Shown here piece by piece: positions 1,790 through 27,128 of a stretch of DNA of 41,155 nucleotides; within the stretch, counting starts at the first letter, position 1; every line of letters begins with the position of its first letter. The stretch is from Ectocarpus siliculosus (lineage: Eukaryota > Sar > Phaeophyceae > Ectocarpales > Ectocarpaceae). Under the pieces are notes generated by a model that saw nothing but the letters and a program-made list of their open reading frames with translations, did no database searches and was not told where the DNA came from. Both the position numbers and the translations under genes were made by a program. The DNA is taken from positions 3,883,386 through 3,924,540 of the forward strand of contig FN649758.1 in the NCBI GenBank assembly GCA_000310025.1, read 5' to 3'.

Positions 1790-2538
1790 TTATTGTTTTT
1801 CTTTCGAATTGCCTTGATTAATATTTTCTGTGGCCTACGGAGGGAGACTTCCCCCGTACCACACGTCCCGCACGGCACAAAGCCTCCGCGGTATCCTAAC
1901 GTGTCTCAGCTACTAAACACAAATCTCCCTCCGAATACCACCAGACGGGACGAAACTGTTGTACAGTAGCAGTCTCGGACGATTGAGCCTCCCAATGGTA
2001 CGCTACCATTCAGAAAACACCCTATGCTACGCTAACTTGCTTCTACATGGCGAAGGTGGCTCCTCCGAGTCACAGAAAATATTAAGAGGCCTCTTCTAAG
2101 TGAGCCCTCACTCGTAACATCTCTCCTATCCCCCACCTTCGAAAGAAAAGGGGTGGGTGGGCGGGAGAAAAGCCACGACATGATTGCTAGCTATCGTCCA
2201 AATTTCGATGTAGCTAGCTGCTGCCCTTCTGCCACGTGACTCCAAAGCGGGCTGCATGGTACATATTGTGTCTTTCTCACAACGTGGCCCTTGGGTCCAG
2301 TGGACAAGCGTCTATCAAACTCTTGCCGCAGGAGCAGCGAGGCAGCAGAATGACAACTCCGTGAGACCTTTCTCTTTTTGGGACCCCAGAAAACCGAACC
2401 AAGACATCCGAACCAACGCGCCTCCAGGGCGGCACAACAAGAACCCAAATACACACGTAGATCTGGGAGATGTTCCGAATTCTTCCGTGCAAAATAAACT
2501 ACAGTTTGTTCGGTCTTCGACAACAAACTTTCATTTTG
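1790..2538. repeat. Dispersed repeat A, copy 1
   Basis: A stretch of about 750 bp that recurs in the same orientation at 5072-5800 with very high similarity. Both copies start near TTTTTCTTTCGAATTGCC and end near the phrase CTTTCATTTTG. The copies differ by small substitutions and short indels, for example near 1910-1980. I see no coding capacity: the open frames inside are shared by both copies only because the DNA is. It is probably a non-autonomous mobile element; no clear terminal repeats were found. Confidence 0.85.
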
Positions 2539-3668: not shown

Positions 3669-6600
3669 ATGAAGTTCCTTTCGATGACCGCTGGGCCTCT
3701 GCTGCTCGCCTTGGCCGTCAGCGCCGGTCGCGGCCGCCGTGGCAATGACGACTCCAACGACGCGCCGTCCCCGACCCCGACGTCCTCGAGTGACTCCTCG
3801 AGTGACTCCTCGAGTGGTTCCTACGACGCCACGTCCGTCGGGACGACCGGTGAGTCATCCCAGGCGGCGACATCCTCCTCCCCCTCGACGGATGCTGAGG
3901 TTTACCCGGAGCCGATGAGTTACGGCAACGACGCGGAGATTACCCCCGAGCCTATTTCCTCCTCGTCCTCCGGCTCCGTCGAGCCGACGGACTACTACGT
4001 CGAAGCGACAGACGGAGGAGAGGAGACGATCACGATGGGCAGCGGAACGGATGACGGGGGCGAGGAGGAAGGGGCGCCGATGGAAAACCCTGATGACGGG
4101 GCGTCCTGCTCCACCTACGATGAGGATGTGAGAACATGAAATTCACAGAAAACCGGCGCGTGCAGTACGAATCTAAAAAGAGAAACCGAATCATTTGACT
4201 ACTGTAATCAGCTAAAAACCCCAAGAAACAGAAACGGTTTCGGCATAATTTGCTGGGATACAGGCTCGGGTGGTGAGCAGCATCAACCAGAGAGAAGGCT
4301 GATTCATGTGTGTGTGTGTTTTGAGTTACTTTTCTCATAGCATTGACCGCGCTAACCATGTGTTGTTGCCCATATTACAATCCCACGAAAACGTTTCAGG
4401 TGGAAGTCGCGAAACTCCTTGATAGCACTTGTGAATGGGACACCTACATGTGCTGCTGGACCGGCAGCGACGGAGCGGACGGGATGACCGCGAACTCCGA
4501 CGTCTGCCGCGTACTGGACTACCCGGAAGAGGGAGACTCCTTCGAAATGCCCCGCGATTCGGAGGGCTCCGTGTACTGGTGGGTCCATATGCGTGTCCTT
4601 CCTTGTAGAGATCTGACTATTTTAAGTAGTCTACTGGGTTTTGTTTCTCCTTTGATGACCAAAATATCTACGCCATGCACGGGATTGTAGAGATCTGACT
4701 ATTTTAAGTAGTCTACTGGGTTTTGTTTCTCCTTTGATGACCAAATTATCTACGCCATGCACGGGATCCCGCATCGTAATACAGCGGGGGGGCGTCATGA
4801 ACGCCGGTTGATTAGCGCCGGTGGCCTTGTATAGCGTTGGTGAAATTGCTGGGCACAGACTGACAATCATTGTGTACATTGAATAGCGCCGGTCGATTCG
4901 CCGGACACAAACCGCCGTATTGAGGGCCCTCCACTCACTGTAGTCCGTATTTCGTTTTGGCTTTGGTTAATTTTCTTTCTTCTGTTTGGGGACGCCATCG
5001 CGTCCCCTGGATATGGATTTATCCTCTACAGCTCCTGCTGTGGTGCTGATACGGCAACGCGATATCTTGTTTATTGTTGTTTTTCTTTCGAATTGCCTCG
5101 ATTAATATTTTCTGTGGCCTACGGAGGGAGACTTCCCCCGTACCACACGTCCCGCACGGCACGAAGCCTCCGCGGTATCCTAACGTGCCTCTGCCACAAC
5201 ACAAATCTCCCTCCGAACACCACCAGGCGGGACGAAACTGTTGAATTGAGCCTCCCAATGGTACGCTACCATTCAGAAAACACCCTATGCTACGCTAACT
5301 TGCTTCTACATGGCGAAGGTGGCTCCTCCGAGTCACAGAAAATATTAAGAGGCCTCTTCTAAGTGAGCCCTCACTCGCAACGTCTCTCCTATCCCCCACC
5401 TTCGAAAGAAAAGGGGTGGGTGGGCGGGAGAAAAGCTACGACGTGATTGCTAGCTATCGTCCAAATTTCGATGTAGCTAACTGCTGCCCTTCTCTGCCGC
5501 GTGGCCCTCCAAAGCGGGCGACATGTTACGCATTGTGTCTTTCTCACAACGTGGCCCTTGGGTCCAGTGGACAAGCGTCTATCAAACTCTTGCCGCAGGA
5601 GCAGCGAGGCAGCAGAATGACAACTCCGTGAGACCTTTCTCTTTTTGGGACCCCAGAAAACCGAACCAAGACATCCGAACCAACGCGCCTCCAGGGCAAC
5701 ACAACAAGAACCCAAATACACACGTAGATCTGGGAGATGTTCCGAATTCTTCCGTGCAAAATAAACTACAGTTTGTTCGGCCTTCGAAACTTTCATTTTG
5801 TTTTAACAAAGCTGTTACAGTAGTGTGCCCACCCCGCCTTACCTCTGTTTTGATGCCAACCAACGACACAGCCATGGCTTCGCCTGGGTGGAAGGCGCGG
5901 ACGTGGACACCCACATCCTGCCCCTGTACCACTACGTGAAGAACGTCGGCCGTACCGAAGAGGGGGGCTTCTACGGAAAGTGAGTCGCCATCTGTTGGTG
6001 GTTTTTGCTTGAGTAAATACGCGACGAGCAGTTCTGACTTGCGGCTGCTCGGGCGCGGTCCCGCAGATCCCTACTTCGTACCTGACACAAAGATCACCGG
6101 AGCACTGGTTTTTGGAATGACTTGCAGTGCTACAGTTGTACCAGGAGGCCTTGGCCAGAGGTATGGGAAGGGGCGATCTCTGGTAGAACTTCCTTTAAGT
6201 AGAGCTCCGTCTTCTTCGCGTGCGGCCCGTAGTACCGTTGTTGGACACTGCTGCGTTGAACGTGTACGCGTTGAACAGAGATGAAGCTGCCGGATAGCGG
6301 CCCGTGCCCTGTCACATCACTAGCAGTGCCGTTTGTTCCATTCAGGCCATATCAGGGGGAACGACGGCTACACCTTGTGTCTTCGTCGTGGTGCCGATCG
6401 TCCACCGCATCACCCTCCGGCATTTTTTGGTTCCCTCCCTGTTTGAGCTTTTTCTCCGGGGAAATGTGCACGGTAGGCCCACCGCGACCGTTTGGCGAAC
6501 CTCTCGTGCTGAAATCTTGATCCCCTCCTCGCACGTTTTTCGTTGATCGAATTCTCGTGTGCAAACCGACAGCGTGGAGGGAGCGCCGGAATGCGGGTGC

Positions 6601-8047
6601 ATCGAGGAAATGCCCCAGGTGTCCTACTCCGAGTGCTCCAGGTACGAACGTCAACGTTTTGGTTTCCTGAAACCCTACCTAGTGGGGAACAATGGTGCCA
6701 AAGGACAATGGGACGGCAGTTTGTAGTCGAGAGGGGGATTACCAGCCATGCCGGCGGTTGTAGGTAGAAAATTACCCAAAACGTGGGAATCTTTGATGTG
6801 ACCCTCGACATGACCCCTTTCCTTCTTATCGCGTGGCCAGGTACTCCTGGGAGGGGATCGTTGGTTGCGGCAACAACGGGCTGTTAAGCCAGTACCGCGG
6901 TCGCCTGGGCGAGCCCTACGGCCCGATGGACGACAACCTGGTGAGGACATGCGACAACGAAGACGTTCCGGACTACGACTACGGGTCGTGCAGCCACAAC
7001 ACGTACATGTGCTGCTGGACGGAAAACGACGGCGAGGGAATGGCGGACAACACGGTGAGACGTCGCGTGCCGGCCGTGGCCTCTTGCGGCGTATTTCTTG
7101 CTGCAGAGCTGACATGTGTTGTTTCTCTCGAACGTGATGACTCTTTTGGCTCCCTTTCCAAACGTGTGAACCCGGTCTATCGACAAGACACGTGTGCAAG
7201 GAAGGACGTTAACCTGACTCTGTTGTCTGTTGTCTTGGGTCATCTTGGTGCCACGCAGGACGTGTGCCGTGTGGTGGACTACCCGTCGATGGGTGAGACG
7301 TTGGAGTTCCCCGGCGACAGCGAGGGGGAGGTGCACTGCCACGGGTTCGTGTGGCCCGAGGACGCCACCGACAAGTACATCCACCTCCTGTCGCAGTTCG
7401 TCCAGAACTTCGACCACAGGGACAGGAGGGGGTACTACGGAAAGTGAGTCACGTCGTACGTTTACCTCTGCATGGCCACATCGGTATCCCGTCCTCGTCA
7501 GCCTGTCATCGAATTGAATAACATTTGTTTCGTAAGACGCGTGCTTGTGTGGACGGCCGCCCGAGTTTTCGAGGTGGCGACGTGCACCATTCCTTCTTCT
7601 ACTGAATGCCGACCATTGTACCACGTCTCCTACACGACAAACCTCTCTCCATCTTCTTATTTCTCACCCCAACCGAAACAAAAACACGCACCATACTATG
7701 TAGGGCAACAGGTACATACTGTAGCAAAGGCAGCGCAACACGTCATCGTGGTGAATGGTAGAACGACTGGTCAAGGCGAGGATAAGACGAGTAACCCATT
7801 GTCTTCTCCTCCAAACGTTTCGCATATCATTCCTGTCGTAACCAGTATCGAGGGCGCCCCCATGTGCGGCTGCATCGAAGAGATGCCGGTGGTTTCCGAA
7901 GCTGACTGCACCACCTACGACACCGACCCGGAGCGAGAGGGCAAGTTCACGGCGTGCACGAAGAACGACCTCCGCACCCGCTACGAGGCAGAGTACCCTA
8001 CCGGGGAGCTTGCCAACCTCGTTGACACCTGCGACAACGCGGAGTAA
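3669..8047 (+). CDS. Secreted Cys-rich tandem-module protein (unknown family), 7 exons
   Basis: Exons: 3669-4127, 4400-4578, 5872-5979, 6573-6641, 6841-7054, 7259-7443, 7846-8047. All junctions are GT-AG and phases match, giving 1,416 nt and 471 aa. Residues 1-20 form a signal peptide (MKFLSMTAGPLLLALAVSAG). Residues about 25-145 are rich in Ser, Thr, Pro, Asp and Glu and look like an extracellular, possibly glycosylated linker. After that a Cys-rich module repeats: TYMCCWT, a G-M-rich turn, DVCRV.DYP, DSEG, CHGF.W, then YGN.EGAP.CGCIEEMP. Unit 1 spans about residues 147-271 and unit 2 about 250-430. Unit 3 stops after TCDNAE, matching TCDNED in unit 2, so it is truncated. The exon junction at YG-N has the same phase in both units, which supports tandem duplication. 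A secreted or wall-associated role is inferred. I do not recognise the family and propose no enzyme activity. Confidence 0.88.
4604..4767. repeat. 82-bp tandem duplication in intron 2
   Basis: Two head-to-tail copies, 4604-4685 and 4686-4767, each starting TGTAGAGATCTGACTATTTT and ending ATGCACGGGAT. They are nearly identical; one difference is AAAATATC versus AAATTATC. The pair lies 26 bases after the exon 2 donor of the secreted-protein gene. The near identity points to a recent event. Confidence 0.95.
5072..5800. repeat. Dispersed repeat A, copy 2 (within intron 2)
   Basis: Second copy of the repeat at 1790-2538, in the same orientation, filling most of the right half of intron 2 of the secreted-protein gene. 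It ends about 70 bases before the exon 3 acceptor. The copies flank the first two exons, so unequal exchange between them could delete or duplicate the signal-peptide exon. Confidence 0.85.
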
Positions 8048-19668: not shown

Positions 19669-22600
19669 TCAAAGAATTCCCTTCTTGGGTGTCGACCTCC
19701 GATTCGTCGTTCTCTCCTTTCGGTTCACAAACCGGGGCCGGCGCCCCCCCGCGTCGGCCCGAGATAGCTGCATCGATACCATCGCCTTGAACGCCTTGCG
19801 GAGGTAGGCCGCTGCCGCCAGCCCTTGCGGGGTCCCCTCCAGCACCTTCACGTCGCGCGCCCGTGGAATGGATGGAAATTTGCACCCATTAATTTACCCC
19901 AACTCAGTTTTGCACATACCATATATGCGCGGGGAGTTTAACATATCAGGAGCCTCGATAGGATTCAACTTTTCCACGTTGGTTGGGTGCGGTTGGTGTG
20001 TACAAAATATCGCACGCCCCCATCCTCCTCGACGATGGTGAGAATGGATGAGAAACTGATTCGCTAGCTTTGCAGCAGTTGGTCATGCTGTAGGAATGAA
20101 ACGTGATCATCACTCTCCAGAGCGATGCCCATCATCCCAAGCATGTACGAAGTCCGCCTCAGGACAACGTGGACGATGCATTTGTTCCAAAATCAGTGAC
20201 AAAAAAAACGTTCAGCAGGAAGAGTAAGCGCAGGTGTGCGCTAATGAAGCTACAGCCGTCGTCACAATGCGTGAGGAGCTACAAGTTTAGCCGTTGAATT
20301 TTTCGGAATTCATTTCTACCCCGGTGCTGCTGGCGGAGACAGGGGGAGTACGCCTCAATTGTGGAGACGTCTGAGAATTGCAACATTTCAATCGGTGATA
20401 CGCCAATCGGTGAACCGTATCCATTTCATGCACTTTTCAGGCTTTAGCACACCAGCAAGACCGGCCCAGGGACCAGGCGCAAGCACAAGCACAAGAGCAA
20501 GATTTTTCGCGTACGCGTTGCGACTGAAGCGTTTCCTCAGGCCAGTTGACAGGCGCTGGTTCGGTGACGGAATAAAAAAAAAAGAAGAGACACGTGCGAA
20601 ACAACGGTCGCGCATTGTTTCGTGCCGCCGCCCGGGAAAACATACCTCCAGCGTGTAAGCAACGCTTTCCAAGGTGGACAGGCATTCTTTCGCCGGCTCC
20701 CGCCTGAAGCCGTAGCCGCTGACTCCCGCGCACCGAAACTTCACCGCCCTGCACAACGCTCCGTCCTCCATTGGCCCCGCCTCCCTCCCCCCCGACTCTT
20801 CCTCGCTCCCGTCCCCTCTCTCATCACCACTACCACCGCCTTCGGCCTCTCCTGAACCCCCAACGGCGGCGACGGGAACGCCACCAACGGAGGCACCCAA
20901 TTCCCTAGTCTTCTGTCCGGCGGGCGTGGTTGCCGTTGTCGGGCGGAGGAGGGAGGGGTACCTGGACAAGATCTGCTTCGCCTGCGACCAGGTGCCGTCG
21001 ACGAGCACCACCACCACCTCTCCTCCTCCTCCTCCTCCTCCTCCTGTTGTTGTTGTTGTTAGTTCTGCCGCTGCTGCGGCTGCCGCTGGTGGTGGTGGGA
21101 AGGGCTGTGCAGACGGGGCAGGTTGATCTCGGGAAGCGGCGATGTCCTGTCCACCGTGTGTCATGAAGAGAGAGGGTGAAATATTGATATGTGCGACTAG
21201 TTGGAACCGCTGATACACACCTTTTTGCAACTACAGGCGTTTCGAACAAGGGCGCTGAGTATTGCTGGCATGTGTTCTTCCTATTGCCCCAGCTTATCGT
21301 GAACCAGAAGCGAAACATCTACAACAATACCCGGTTGCTCCACAGCACTAACGACGACGACTTTCTGCGGGCACAGATACTATCAGAAAACAAATTGGGC
21401 ACCAGACAAAATGACAGTCCCACCCACAAATCGGCAATGCGACACGAACATGGAAAAACTTTCCGCGTGCTCGAGAAACATCGTTCGAGGGAGGATGTGC
21501 CGTGCTTCCCAACGTTGTCGATTGGGCACGCTCTCGTTTTTCTGTCCGCCTCTCCTGCTGTATCTCGTGGACAGGCCTGGGCCAAAGCCGCTTTGGAACG
21601 AAAGTGACAAGACGCCGGACGCTCGGCGCAAGATACACGGTTTCCACTCACACACCCGCGCCGCATACTGTCCTGGGGCAAAACGAACATGTTCCAAAGG
21701 GGATAACGAAACAGAACACCATATTTTCCGGAAAACGACAAAGAACAAAACCCTTCGGAACGACGCGCCATTCGCCCATCACAGCGGAAATCATGACAAT
21801 CATGACCTAATGCTAACGTCTGCCACCAATTCACCTCAAGGTATTCCGCACCGGGGCAGGGGAAAAGAAGAAGCGGAATGCCTGTGCTGGCGCTGTTTTC
21901 CCGCTCCGAGGAAATTTCCGAGACGCGTTCTGGAGAACGGTATATTGCCACCTCGACGCCGAGGGCTTTCCTGAGGTCTTGCTCGCTGTAGTCGTACCGC
22001 ATGACCACGCGGGTGCAGTTGGCGAGGCAGTGGAGGACCAGAGGAACGGTCCCGGTGACACGCCTGATGAAGAAAATGGGAAAAATGACGGAAAACATCG
22101 GTTTGGGCCGCGTGTTGTGCACAGCGTTTGGCTTCCAAAACCTCCAAATTCCATTTTTTTTCCTCGGCCGCAAAATTGAGGTCCAACGGTCTACGTATTT
22201 GGAAATTCGGAATCTTTGGAAGAAAAATCACTGTGTATAAAACTGCGCCTGTTAAAAGTGCGAGCCTCCCTCGGAAATCGATTTTCGAACACAGACGGTG
22301 CACCAGGAGAAACGTGCAGTGAAGGGCGATATTGGCTAGGTTACACTGAAGGCGCTAGGTGGCGAATTTACAACCCCTTTTTCCCTGCCTGATGAGCTGT
22401 GCGGGGTGGTGATGCATGTTCTCCGAGTCTGGGATCCACAACAACGCTAGACCGTGACGAGCTCACTTCTTAGTTTCCGCTGGATGTTGCAATATTACGA
22501 ACCGAGTAGACGTTGGCATGGCTTCAGCCGGCAAGGAAGAGCACAGGCACATCTGTCACGATCGACAATCGGGCAGAGGGAAAAGATGATGCGGGCGGAG

Positions 22601-24550: not shown

Positions 24551-27128
24551 ATGGGGGCCGCCTTCCAGCGCATGCTCTCGGCGTTCTACACGCGACAGCT
24601 GGAAGTGGTGCTGGTTGGTCTGGAGAACAGCGGGAAGACGACCTTGATGAATGGTGAGCGCGCAGCAAAGTGCTTGGTATGCATCCGCCAAAAGAGAGCC
24701 AGCAGTACAATTATCGCCCTTGTTGCAGGGACAGGTCGTTCAGCTGTTGCTGCGTAGAGCGGTACGTTCGTGGCCTGTGGTGTTATCTTTCACCACCAGA
24801 GTACCCATGTAACCATGGCAGATGTTGTGCTTCGATCAGTGTTTACTTTATTTGCCCGATGCTTGCAGCCAGCCCTCCGAAGATCTACAAAGCTACAGTA
24901 CTGCCGTACTTTTCGGCATTTAGTGCGGCGAGATTTTTTTAACACTCAAGCCAGGTGCGGCGGGACTCCACATCTGGCCGAGGTCGGCGGGAAGCAACGA
25001 TGGTAGGCCATCCGAGAGGAACAGATCACGCGGTGCTCTCTCAGCGCTTGCACCGATAGCCAAGTCCATCAAATAGCATTGGACAGCACACAATGAAACG
25101 ATGGCGGAGGGCTTAGAACAGGAGTCACGGATTTTTGAACTTGCGGCTTTCTGCAGACACATAAGCCGTGTTCCCGGCAACGCACTAACACTGCAATTTG
25201 GGTGGGTACAAAGGGTGCACTGATCGCAGTTGTATGTTTGTTTGTTTTTTGGGGGGGGGTAGCGCGTGCAGTGACATCCTCAGGTCCGACAAGTAAAGGA
25301 AAGGACAAACATTGCGCAACTTAGCCCCGTACGGCGGATGCTATTTACGAACTACTTCGGTTTTCATACAAATGTTGCTTGTGAAACGGAGCAGTCACGG
25401 GGTTTCGTCGTGAACAACCCTCTCAACTTTCTTTCTCGCGTACTGTATAGTCCGTTCTTTCAACAGCTGTTGCTGTGTGTCTACGGCGACAACACGGTAA
25501 AACATACCCTAGGTCCAATCACAACGCCTCATATGTACACCTCCGCGTGTTCGGTTGATGCTGCTGTTGTGTTTTGTTCGCTCCGCCGTAGTGCTCGCCA
25601 GCGGCCACCCGGTGGACACGGTTCCGACCATCGGGCTCAACGTCAAGGTGCAGTTGTCTTGGCCCTTTCCCTCCGCAGTGGCGATTTCGGTGATTGTCTT
25701 TGGTTGGTGGCTAGCGAATCTGGTGGCATGGGGGTAGCGCAAATGGCGATGTAAATCTTTTTGGCGTTGAGTCTTGTGATGCGGCGCAATCACGCGCGCG
25801 AGAAAGAAGCTTGCATGCCCGCCTAGGGCACCTATGACGTCAACACACGCCGCATCTCATCCCTGCCCGACCTGGTTGTGTCGCCCGGCTGTATGCCTTT
25901 CCTGGTACCAATGTTGTTTCGAGTCGGGCATTTTCAGTCCAACCCAGCCAAATGCTTCACCCAGTTCCGCTCCGGGGTGCATGTTAGTGCAAGTTTGACT
26001 GCGCGGCAAAAAGGAGGATGAAAAACTTCCCTCAACCAATTAAGGTTAGGCTTGCAACGGGTGGCACACTCTCATCTTTCAAACGCGAGAACTGACCCCC
26101 CCCCGGACAACAACAAAAATTCAGATGATCAAGCGGGGCGGGGTGCAAATGAAGTGCTGGGACATCGGGGGACAGGCGCAGTACCGGGGCGAGTGGGGCC
26201 GCTACACGAGAGGGTGCGACGTGATCGTCTACGTTGTCGATGCTCACGCCGAAGAGAAGGTGAAAACCCGCCAAGATGAAAGTATGTCCGGCTTCCAGGA
26301 GCCGGTCTTTCTCCCATTCACTTCGGCAAAGGACGGACGGGTGCTGTTATCTAGAACGGCTAGTATTTTCTGTGGTTGTGTATGGTTTCTGAAAACGTCG
26401 CTTGCAAGAGATGGGCACGTCCTTGTGCCGCTCTTTTTAGCAAGATTGGTTGGGGACGACTGGTTACATGGCTCTGATTGGGCCAAGCAGGTGTCCTCCA
26501 TGTTACTCGATGAAGCATAAGCATATGAAAAACAATCCCCTCCCCTCACACCCAATACCCACACCTACACGTATTCTGCTCCGCCTCGAAAACGTCTCAC
26601 TCGTCATTCGCACCCACTCCAGCATGACCATGCACCTATACCGACGCCCCCTTCCAAATCAAACGTAAGGATAATGACCAACCAGCTTCTGCTTCATCCT
26701 TGTGAAACGCAGTAAACTGGGCGGGCAAAAAACCGGCACATCGCTCCGTCCCGGCGTTGTAGGGATGCTTGGTGAATGTGTATTGTCACGTCTACGGCCT
26801 GCGTCGTTTACAGGAGCACACACCCCTGCAGTATGACCATGCGTTTGTACCGGTACGCCCCCCCCCATTGGAAACCCTTCTGCCCAGGCGGCGCTCGCCA
26901 GACGAGAACTGCATCGATTACTGGAGGACGAGGAGCTGGCGTCTACGCCGCTGCTGGTGTTGGCGAACAAGGTTGATCTGGAGCCGCATATGAGCGAGGA
27001 CCAGATCATCCGGGAGTTGAATCTCGACTACGTGACCGCAAACCCTTGGATTCTTATCCCGATATCGGCGCTCAAGGTAAATGATGTTTTTGGAGGGTGG
27101 TGATGGTGATGGTGATGGTGCCGCCGCC

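Follow-up and report, generated by a model that had tools for sequence, protein, structure and literature searches.

What kind of protein does a brown alga encode in a gene for two tandem Cys-rich modules on a long acidic stalk with a signal-peptide-like start? The gene in question was found in Ectocarpus siliculosus, within a stretch of 41,155 nucleotides of contig FN649758.1 that is herein called the window. The original prediction, made from the DNA letters, described a secreted protein with a signal peptide, a Ser/Thr/Asp-rich linker and Cys-rich modules duplicated inside one gene, for which a role in the cell wall, in adhesion or in defence was considered possible. A seven-exon model with GT-AG introns accounts for window positions 3669-8047 on the forward strand; its joined frame encodes 471 aa, contains 21 Cys and has no internal stops. 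The features are as follows.

3669..4127, forward strand: exon 1, with the ATG, a signal-peptide-like segment and the acidic stalk up to CSTYDED (open frame and GT donor)
4400..4578, forward strand: exon 2, 179 nt, of equal length in 6/6 two-module models
5872..5979, forward strand: exon 3, 108 nt, of equal length in 6/6 two-module models
6573..6641, forward strand: exon 4, 69 nt, of equal length in 6/6 two-module models
6841..7054, forward strand: exon 5, 214 nt, with the end of module 1 and the start of module 2, of equal length in 6/6 two-module models
7259..7443, forward strand: exon 6, 185 nt, of equal length in 6/6 two-module models
7846..8047, forward strand: exon 7 with the TAA stop (joined open frame; stop checked in six models)
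3669..3728, forward strand: likely signal peptide, approximately aa 1-20 (highest 17-residue hydropathy from aa 3; paralogues alike)
3729..4106, forward strand: stalk of approximately 126 aa, rich in Ser, Thr, Asp and Glu by composition, with no Cys and a length that differs among paralogues
4107..4109, forward strand: codon of the odd stalk Cys (aa 147), part of CSTYDED in 7/7 modelled genes with module 1
4400..6958, forward strand: module 1, aa 154-311, encoded by exons 2, 3 and 4 and part of exon 5
6959..8044, forward strand: module 2, aa 312-471, encoded by the remainder of exon 5 and by exons 6 and 7

The seven exons probably belong to one transcript, because the lengths of exons 2-6 are equal in six models, the frame is open and dN/dS lies below 1. 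Exon 1 measures 297-495 nt across the six two-module models, five of which begin two codons after the ATG; these five paralogues have an in-frame ATG two codons ahead of the modelled start, together with a matching GPLL.ALA core. In 6/6 two-module genes, the frame opens with an ATG that either coincides with the modelled start or precedes it by two codons, and it closes with a stop that coincides with the modelled end or follows it by one codon. The protein start is hydrophobic and has the character of a signal peptide, in line with the original prediction, and the Ser/Thr/Asp-rich linker likewise lies where it had been placed, as judged by composition. Past aa 30, the mean hydropathy over 17 residues never rises above 0.75 in the window protein, so there is no sign of another membrane segment or of a hydrophobic tail. 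The predicted module motifs were recovered as well, some of them only after splicing: CHGF.W of unit 1 and YGN.EGAP of both units are split by introns.

Intron 2 contains an 82-bp tandem duplication (window 4603-4767, 98-99% identity). A repeat of approximately 715-730 bp occurs in two copies, one upstream of the gene (window 1790-2520) and one inside intron 2 (5074-5787), which are 94-98% identical in aligned blocks and 93% overall. It looks like a mobile element, since at least 58 matching pieces occur in the genome (40 scored of 417 candidates). A Pfam scan of 10 open frames of the window found a match to the DTW domain at 20391-21230 on the reverse strand (PF03942, E 3.7e-13) and an exon-like frame matching an Arf-family GTPase at 26050-26517 on the forward strand (PF00025, E 9.7e-12).

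Each module consists of approximately 158 aa with exactly ten Cys, which sharpens the earlier estimate of about ten. The tandem duplication within one gene is well founded: in the single joined frame, unit 1 and unit 2 share 74/154 identical residues by BLASTP (48%, E = 3e-47), and their local score of 379 compares with a maximum of 74 among 2000 shuffles. The comparison covered 16 units drawn from 10 intact gene models. All ten Cys columns are filled in 16/16 units without a further Cys in any of them, and the Cys follow a fixed order that includes CC, CHG and C.C (16/16). Altogether, 45 alignment columns are invariant in 16/16 units, among them N33, D35, E50, E56, H62, E109 and S115. In 6/6 two-module proteins, the 21 Cys are spaced identically.

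The window gene is a member of a small family. Searched with the full-length window protein, the genome (189 Mb in 492 contigs) yielded 73 matches at the exon level with E<=10, of which the weakest are probably due to chance. Six of the genes modelled from these matches carry two modules, namely the window gene and L009b on contig C33 and L013, L014, L015 and L016a on C23. L009a (C33) is a module-1-type gene that ends after its module, and L010, L011 and L012 (C33) are intact one-module genes, each with its own signal-peptide-like start. Damaged copies include L016 5762-8054 (C23), the exons of which are out of order, and the one-module copy L017 920-2200 (C13), which has a stop inside the signal peptide; further family fragments lie on C14 and C16. 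A second genome search with a one-module protein as the query gave 44 matches and no further locus. As a DNA pattern, CHGF.W has 19 matches in the genome versus 11 for the reversed control pattern. Eight of the 19 lie inside known family genes; the other 11 were judged to be chance, their alignments reaching little beyond CHGF.W and having a best tblastn E of 0.003 in a small set. The paralogue clusters, together with the conserved Cys at aa 147 and the strong net acidity described below, go beyond the original prediction.

The order of duplication was approached with a tree of the 16 units (15 distinct, root not known). Herein, the module 1 units (7 rows) and the one-module genes (3 rows) each split off with a support of 100/100, and module 2 is placed between them; good support is limited to 2/12 inner branches, and 7 have weak support. 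Because the units group in this way, the tree fits a single internal duplication that would have preceded gene copying in both clusters. Intron positions, read by eye, add a direction. Module 2 and the one-module genes have introns in common before DVC and within the N codon of YGN, and module 1 has no intron before DVC. These shared introns suggest that module 2 may be the more original form, a point that the tree does not decide.

The original prediction could not assign the module to a named domain, and the library searches agree: no significant match was found in Pfam, NCBIfam or the PDB, and the Pfam profile search gave no clear hit to a named domain. For the two joined modules, a query with small errors at two splice joints, Pfam returned no match at E<=10. 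With corrected units, Pfam gave one match to one of 10 family units (E 4.1), and NCBIfam likewise gave one match to one family unit (E 0.44). The best E against the PDB was 0.99 by phmmer and 0.54 by profile search, the latter for an intron endonuclease among six matches at E<=10. In PHROGs, window module 2 matches phrog_30870 (function not known) at E 8.8e-4, and one further match has an E of 0.34. The phrog_30870 match was treated as chance, because it faded to E 0.017 in the module 2 of one paralogue, was absent in five other units and had no counterpart in phage DNA (tblastn, no match at E<=10).

Searches of contig collections that hold viruses and prokaryotes, and hence have little bearing on eukaryotes, gave no relative. 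In viral_contigs, the one-module query had no pattern matches, alignment A1 had 51 with none confirmed, a first DNA pattern led to four loci with frames that show just the short pattern stretch, and a second DNA pattern led to none. In genome_contigs, alignment A1 had 64 pattern matches, none of which was confirmed. A Ca2+ loop of TSP3 or EF-hand type was considered by eye in WTENDGEGMADNTDVC; the one-module genes differ at this place (WDGRNGLAVKDNTDVC), and the resemblance was kept as a lead only. Predicted proteins of the CHGFAW type may occur in diatoms. In a literature search, none of the module motif strings turned up in the papers, and the accessible part of PMC12629598 does not mention a ten-Cys module family. 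"Unrecognised" thus means that the module has no name in the Pfam, NCBIfam and PDB libraries, and not that it is unique.

Outside the modules, the stalk provides two further clues. After aa 24, there are 21 Cys in 6/6 two-module proteins, meaning ten for each module plus the Cys of CSTYDED. L009a has ten Cys plus the CSTYDED Cys (counted by eye in a model that starts a few codons after the ATG), and the one-module genes lack CSTYDED and have ten Cys following the signal peptide (3/3). If each module is closed in itself, the extra Cys is left without an intrachain partner, which suggests that it is bound covalently to a second chain or to the matrix. The second clue is charge. The computed net charge at pH 7 after aa 20 is -70 to -79 for the two-module proteins, -25 for L009a and -10 to -11 for the one-module proteins. 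The pI is at most 4.05 for seven proteins, a value believed to be the floor of the program and hence an upper bound. An acidic excess is also common among secreted proteins of marine organisms. In the one-module genes, a short leader replaces the stalk, and their charge is low; therefore, the module itself needs neither stalk nor charge.

Taken together, these features are best explained by a small brown-algal family of secreted, disulfide-stapled and strongly acidic extracellular-matrix proteins, an assignment that we favour tentatively and at somewhat less than even chance. The signal peptide would export the protein from the cell. Outside, the acidic, Ser/Thr-rich stalk would bear a pair of compact modules (a single one in the smaller relatives), with probably five disulfides stapling each of them. 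The odd Cys, placed where the stalk meets module 1, probably ties two chains together or anchors the protein in the matrix, and a protein of such negative charge would be suited to binding cations such as Ca2+ within the alginate/fucan wall. It would work in the manner of diatom frustulins or pleuralins without belonging to either group. It is the design of the protein that points to a location in the wall and to the binding of cations or polymers. Against this reading weigh the acidic excess of marine secreted proteins in general, a stalk that is not a clear arabinogalactan-protein backbone, the short leader and low charge of the one-module genes, and the deviant constraint on L009b described below.

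Selective constraint bears on this reading and on its strongest rival. By the method of Nei-Gojobori, applied to gene pairs of the family, the window gene compared with four C23 genes has a dN/dS of 0.12-0.14 in module 2, 0.32-0.38 in module 1 and 0.34-0.58 in the stalk. Compared with L009b, the values are 0.43 for module 1, 0.57 for the stalk and 0.78 for module 2, where dS is as low as 0.30. The deviation resides in module 2 of L009b (L009 7771-9161), which has a dS of 0.30-0.38 and a dN/dS of 0.64-0.78 against 5/5 others, including 0.64-0.66 against the C23 genes, unlike module 1 of the same gene (0.30-0.43). Constraint on this copy of module 2 may be relaxed, or the copy may be partly gene-converted. 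To judge from these ratios, window module 2 is under purifying selection relative to four of the five other copies, and L009b is the exception to the pattern; across all 15 pairs of two-module genes, module 2 has the lower ratio in no more than 9. The one-module genes have a dN/dS of 0.08-0.16 among themselves (n=3).

These values are relevant to a role in defence or recognition, in which disulfide-rich inhibitor or lectin-like modules would face microbes or grazers and be clustered for variety. Such a role is possible but doubtful. The gene clusters do show copy-number change and broken copies, and module 1 has the higher dN/dS in 9/15 two-module gene pairs. Yet 0/39 module or one-module comparisons exceed a dN/dS of 1 (maximum 0.78), the single stalk value above 1 (2.60) comes from 3 codons, stalk ratios with L009a being based on 3 codons and meaningless, and no lectin or inhibitor family is matched significantly in Pfam.

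It is unlikely that the family provides a ligand or recognition protein specific to one life stage or to the gamete surface. A secreted-type modular protein with conserved Cys and young duplicates in both clusters would suit this role, but no feature pointing to a receptor was noticed in the sequence; the search of the family proteins for processing sites covered RxL. Less likely again is a secreted enzyme of unassigned fold, for which the invariant Asn, Asp, Glu, His and Ser would be candidate catalytic residues. These polar residues are invariant in 16/16 units, but invariance says little about catalysis when it is seen among paralogues from a single genome, and searches of Pfam, NCBIfam and the PDB turned up no enzyme family at a significant level. 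It is very improbable that the window exons fail to make up a single working transcript or that the window copy is decaying. A copy of the dispersed repeat does lie inside intron 2, and several relatives are broken, but the full open frame, the GT-AG sites, exons 2-6 of matching length across six genes and a dN/dS below 1 argue against it.

For the matrix-protein reading, a more specific version can be formulated, which we regard as speculative. Herein, the ten-Cys module would be an undescribed disulfide fold and the protein a covalently cross-linking, cation-binding component of the brown-algal matrix; the odd stalk Cys would join chains, and the gain of a second module and an acidic stalk would have made a wall cross-linker out of a small secreted protein with one module. 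Few of the structural proteins that make up the brown-algal extracellular matrix have, to our knowledge, been identified by sequence. The invariant Cys pattern and the odd Cys offer a concrete candidate for protein cross-links in the alginate wall, and the ten-Cys module makes a clean domain model that can be searched for in other stramenopiles.

Several named systems invite comparison. EsV-1-7 proteins are numerous in brown algae. Like the window family, the EsV-1-7 (IMM) proteins are Cys-rich and numerous in this genome, where 150/150 scored candidates (of 880) match the motif. C-x4-C-x16-C-x2-H, which we take to be the EsV-1-7 motif, occurs in 0/10 family proteins, and PF19114 is not among the Pfam matches of the module. 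WSC proteins share a Cys-rich extracellular domain and are frequent in this genome as well (at least 102 matches, 150 scored of 244 candidates); PF01822 is absent from the Pfam matches of the joined modules and of 10/10 units. They are mentioned for brown-algal walls in the accessible text of PMC8307928. By its content of EsV-1-7 and WSC matches, the genome thus has a brown-algal look.

An arabinogalactan-protein backbone is characterised by at least 50% Pro+Ala+Ser+Thr together with enriched [ASTGV]P. Whole stalks contain 37-47% of these residues in 5/5 tested (L016a lies outside this set), and aa 32-71 of the window protein contain 75%. In the window stalk, [ASTGV]P occurs 6 times versus 6.0 in shuffles; it exceeds shuffles (P<0.05) in 3/4 paralogues tested. 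The case is thus ambiguous: the whole window stalk falls below the threshold, and aa 32-71 lie above it by composition. As far as excerpts of PMC8307928 describe them, the chimeric arabinogalactan-protein-like cores of brown algae share with the window family a secreted-type design and a stalk containing Pro, Ala, Ser and Thr.

Cell-wall proteins of diatoms, which are also stramenopiles, come closer, being acidic, Cys-rich and multi-domain with an affinity for Ca2+ in the accessible passages of PMC4557024 and PMC4712521. According to these passages, frustulins are secreted and acidic and combine several Cys-rich domains with linkers, as does the window family, and they have Ca2+ affinity; their ACR domains measure approximately 50 aa and carry CQGDCD and VPGCSG motifs, whereas the window family units measure approximately 158 aa (PMC4557024, PMC4712521). 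The frustulin-type patterns C.GDC and VPGC.G occur in 0/10 family proteins, and a Trp-rich domain of frustulin type was not found, Trp making up 1.1-1.5% of each whole protein (10/10). Frustulins also have a pre-sequence with an ER signal peptide, to which the hydrophobic start of the window protein may correspond. Pleuralins resemble the window family in having an N-terminal low-complexity part followed by repeated domains that contain Cys and Asp, as outlined in the available part of PMC4557024. Their PSCD domains are Pro-rich and approximately 90 aa long, in contrast to the units of approximately 158 aa. The PDB presumably contains a PSCD structure, and none of the six profile matches there at E<=10 is a PSCD chain. 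While a member of neither group, the window family appears nearest in design to the frustulins and pleuralins.
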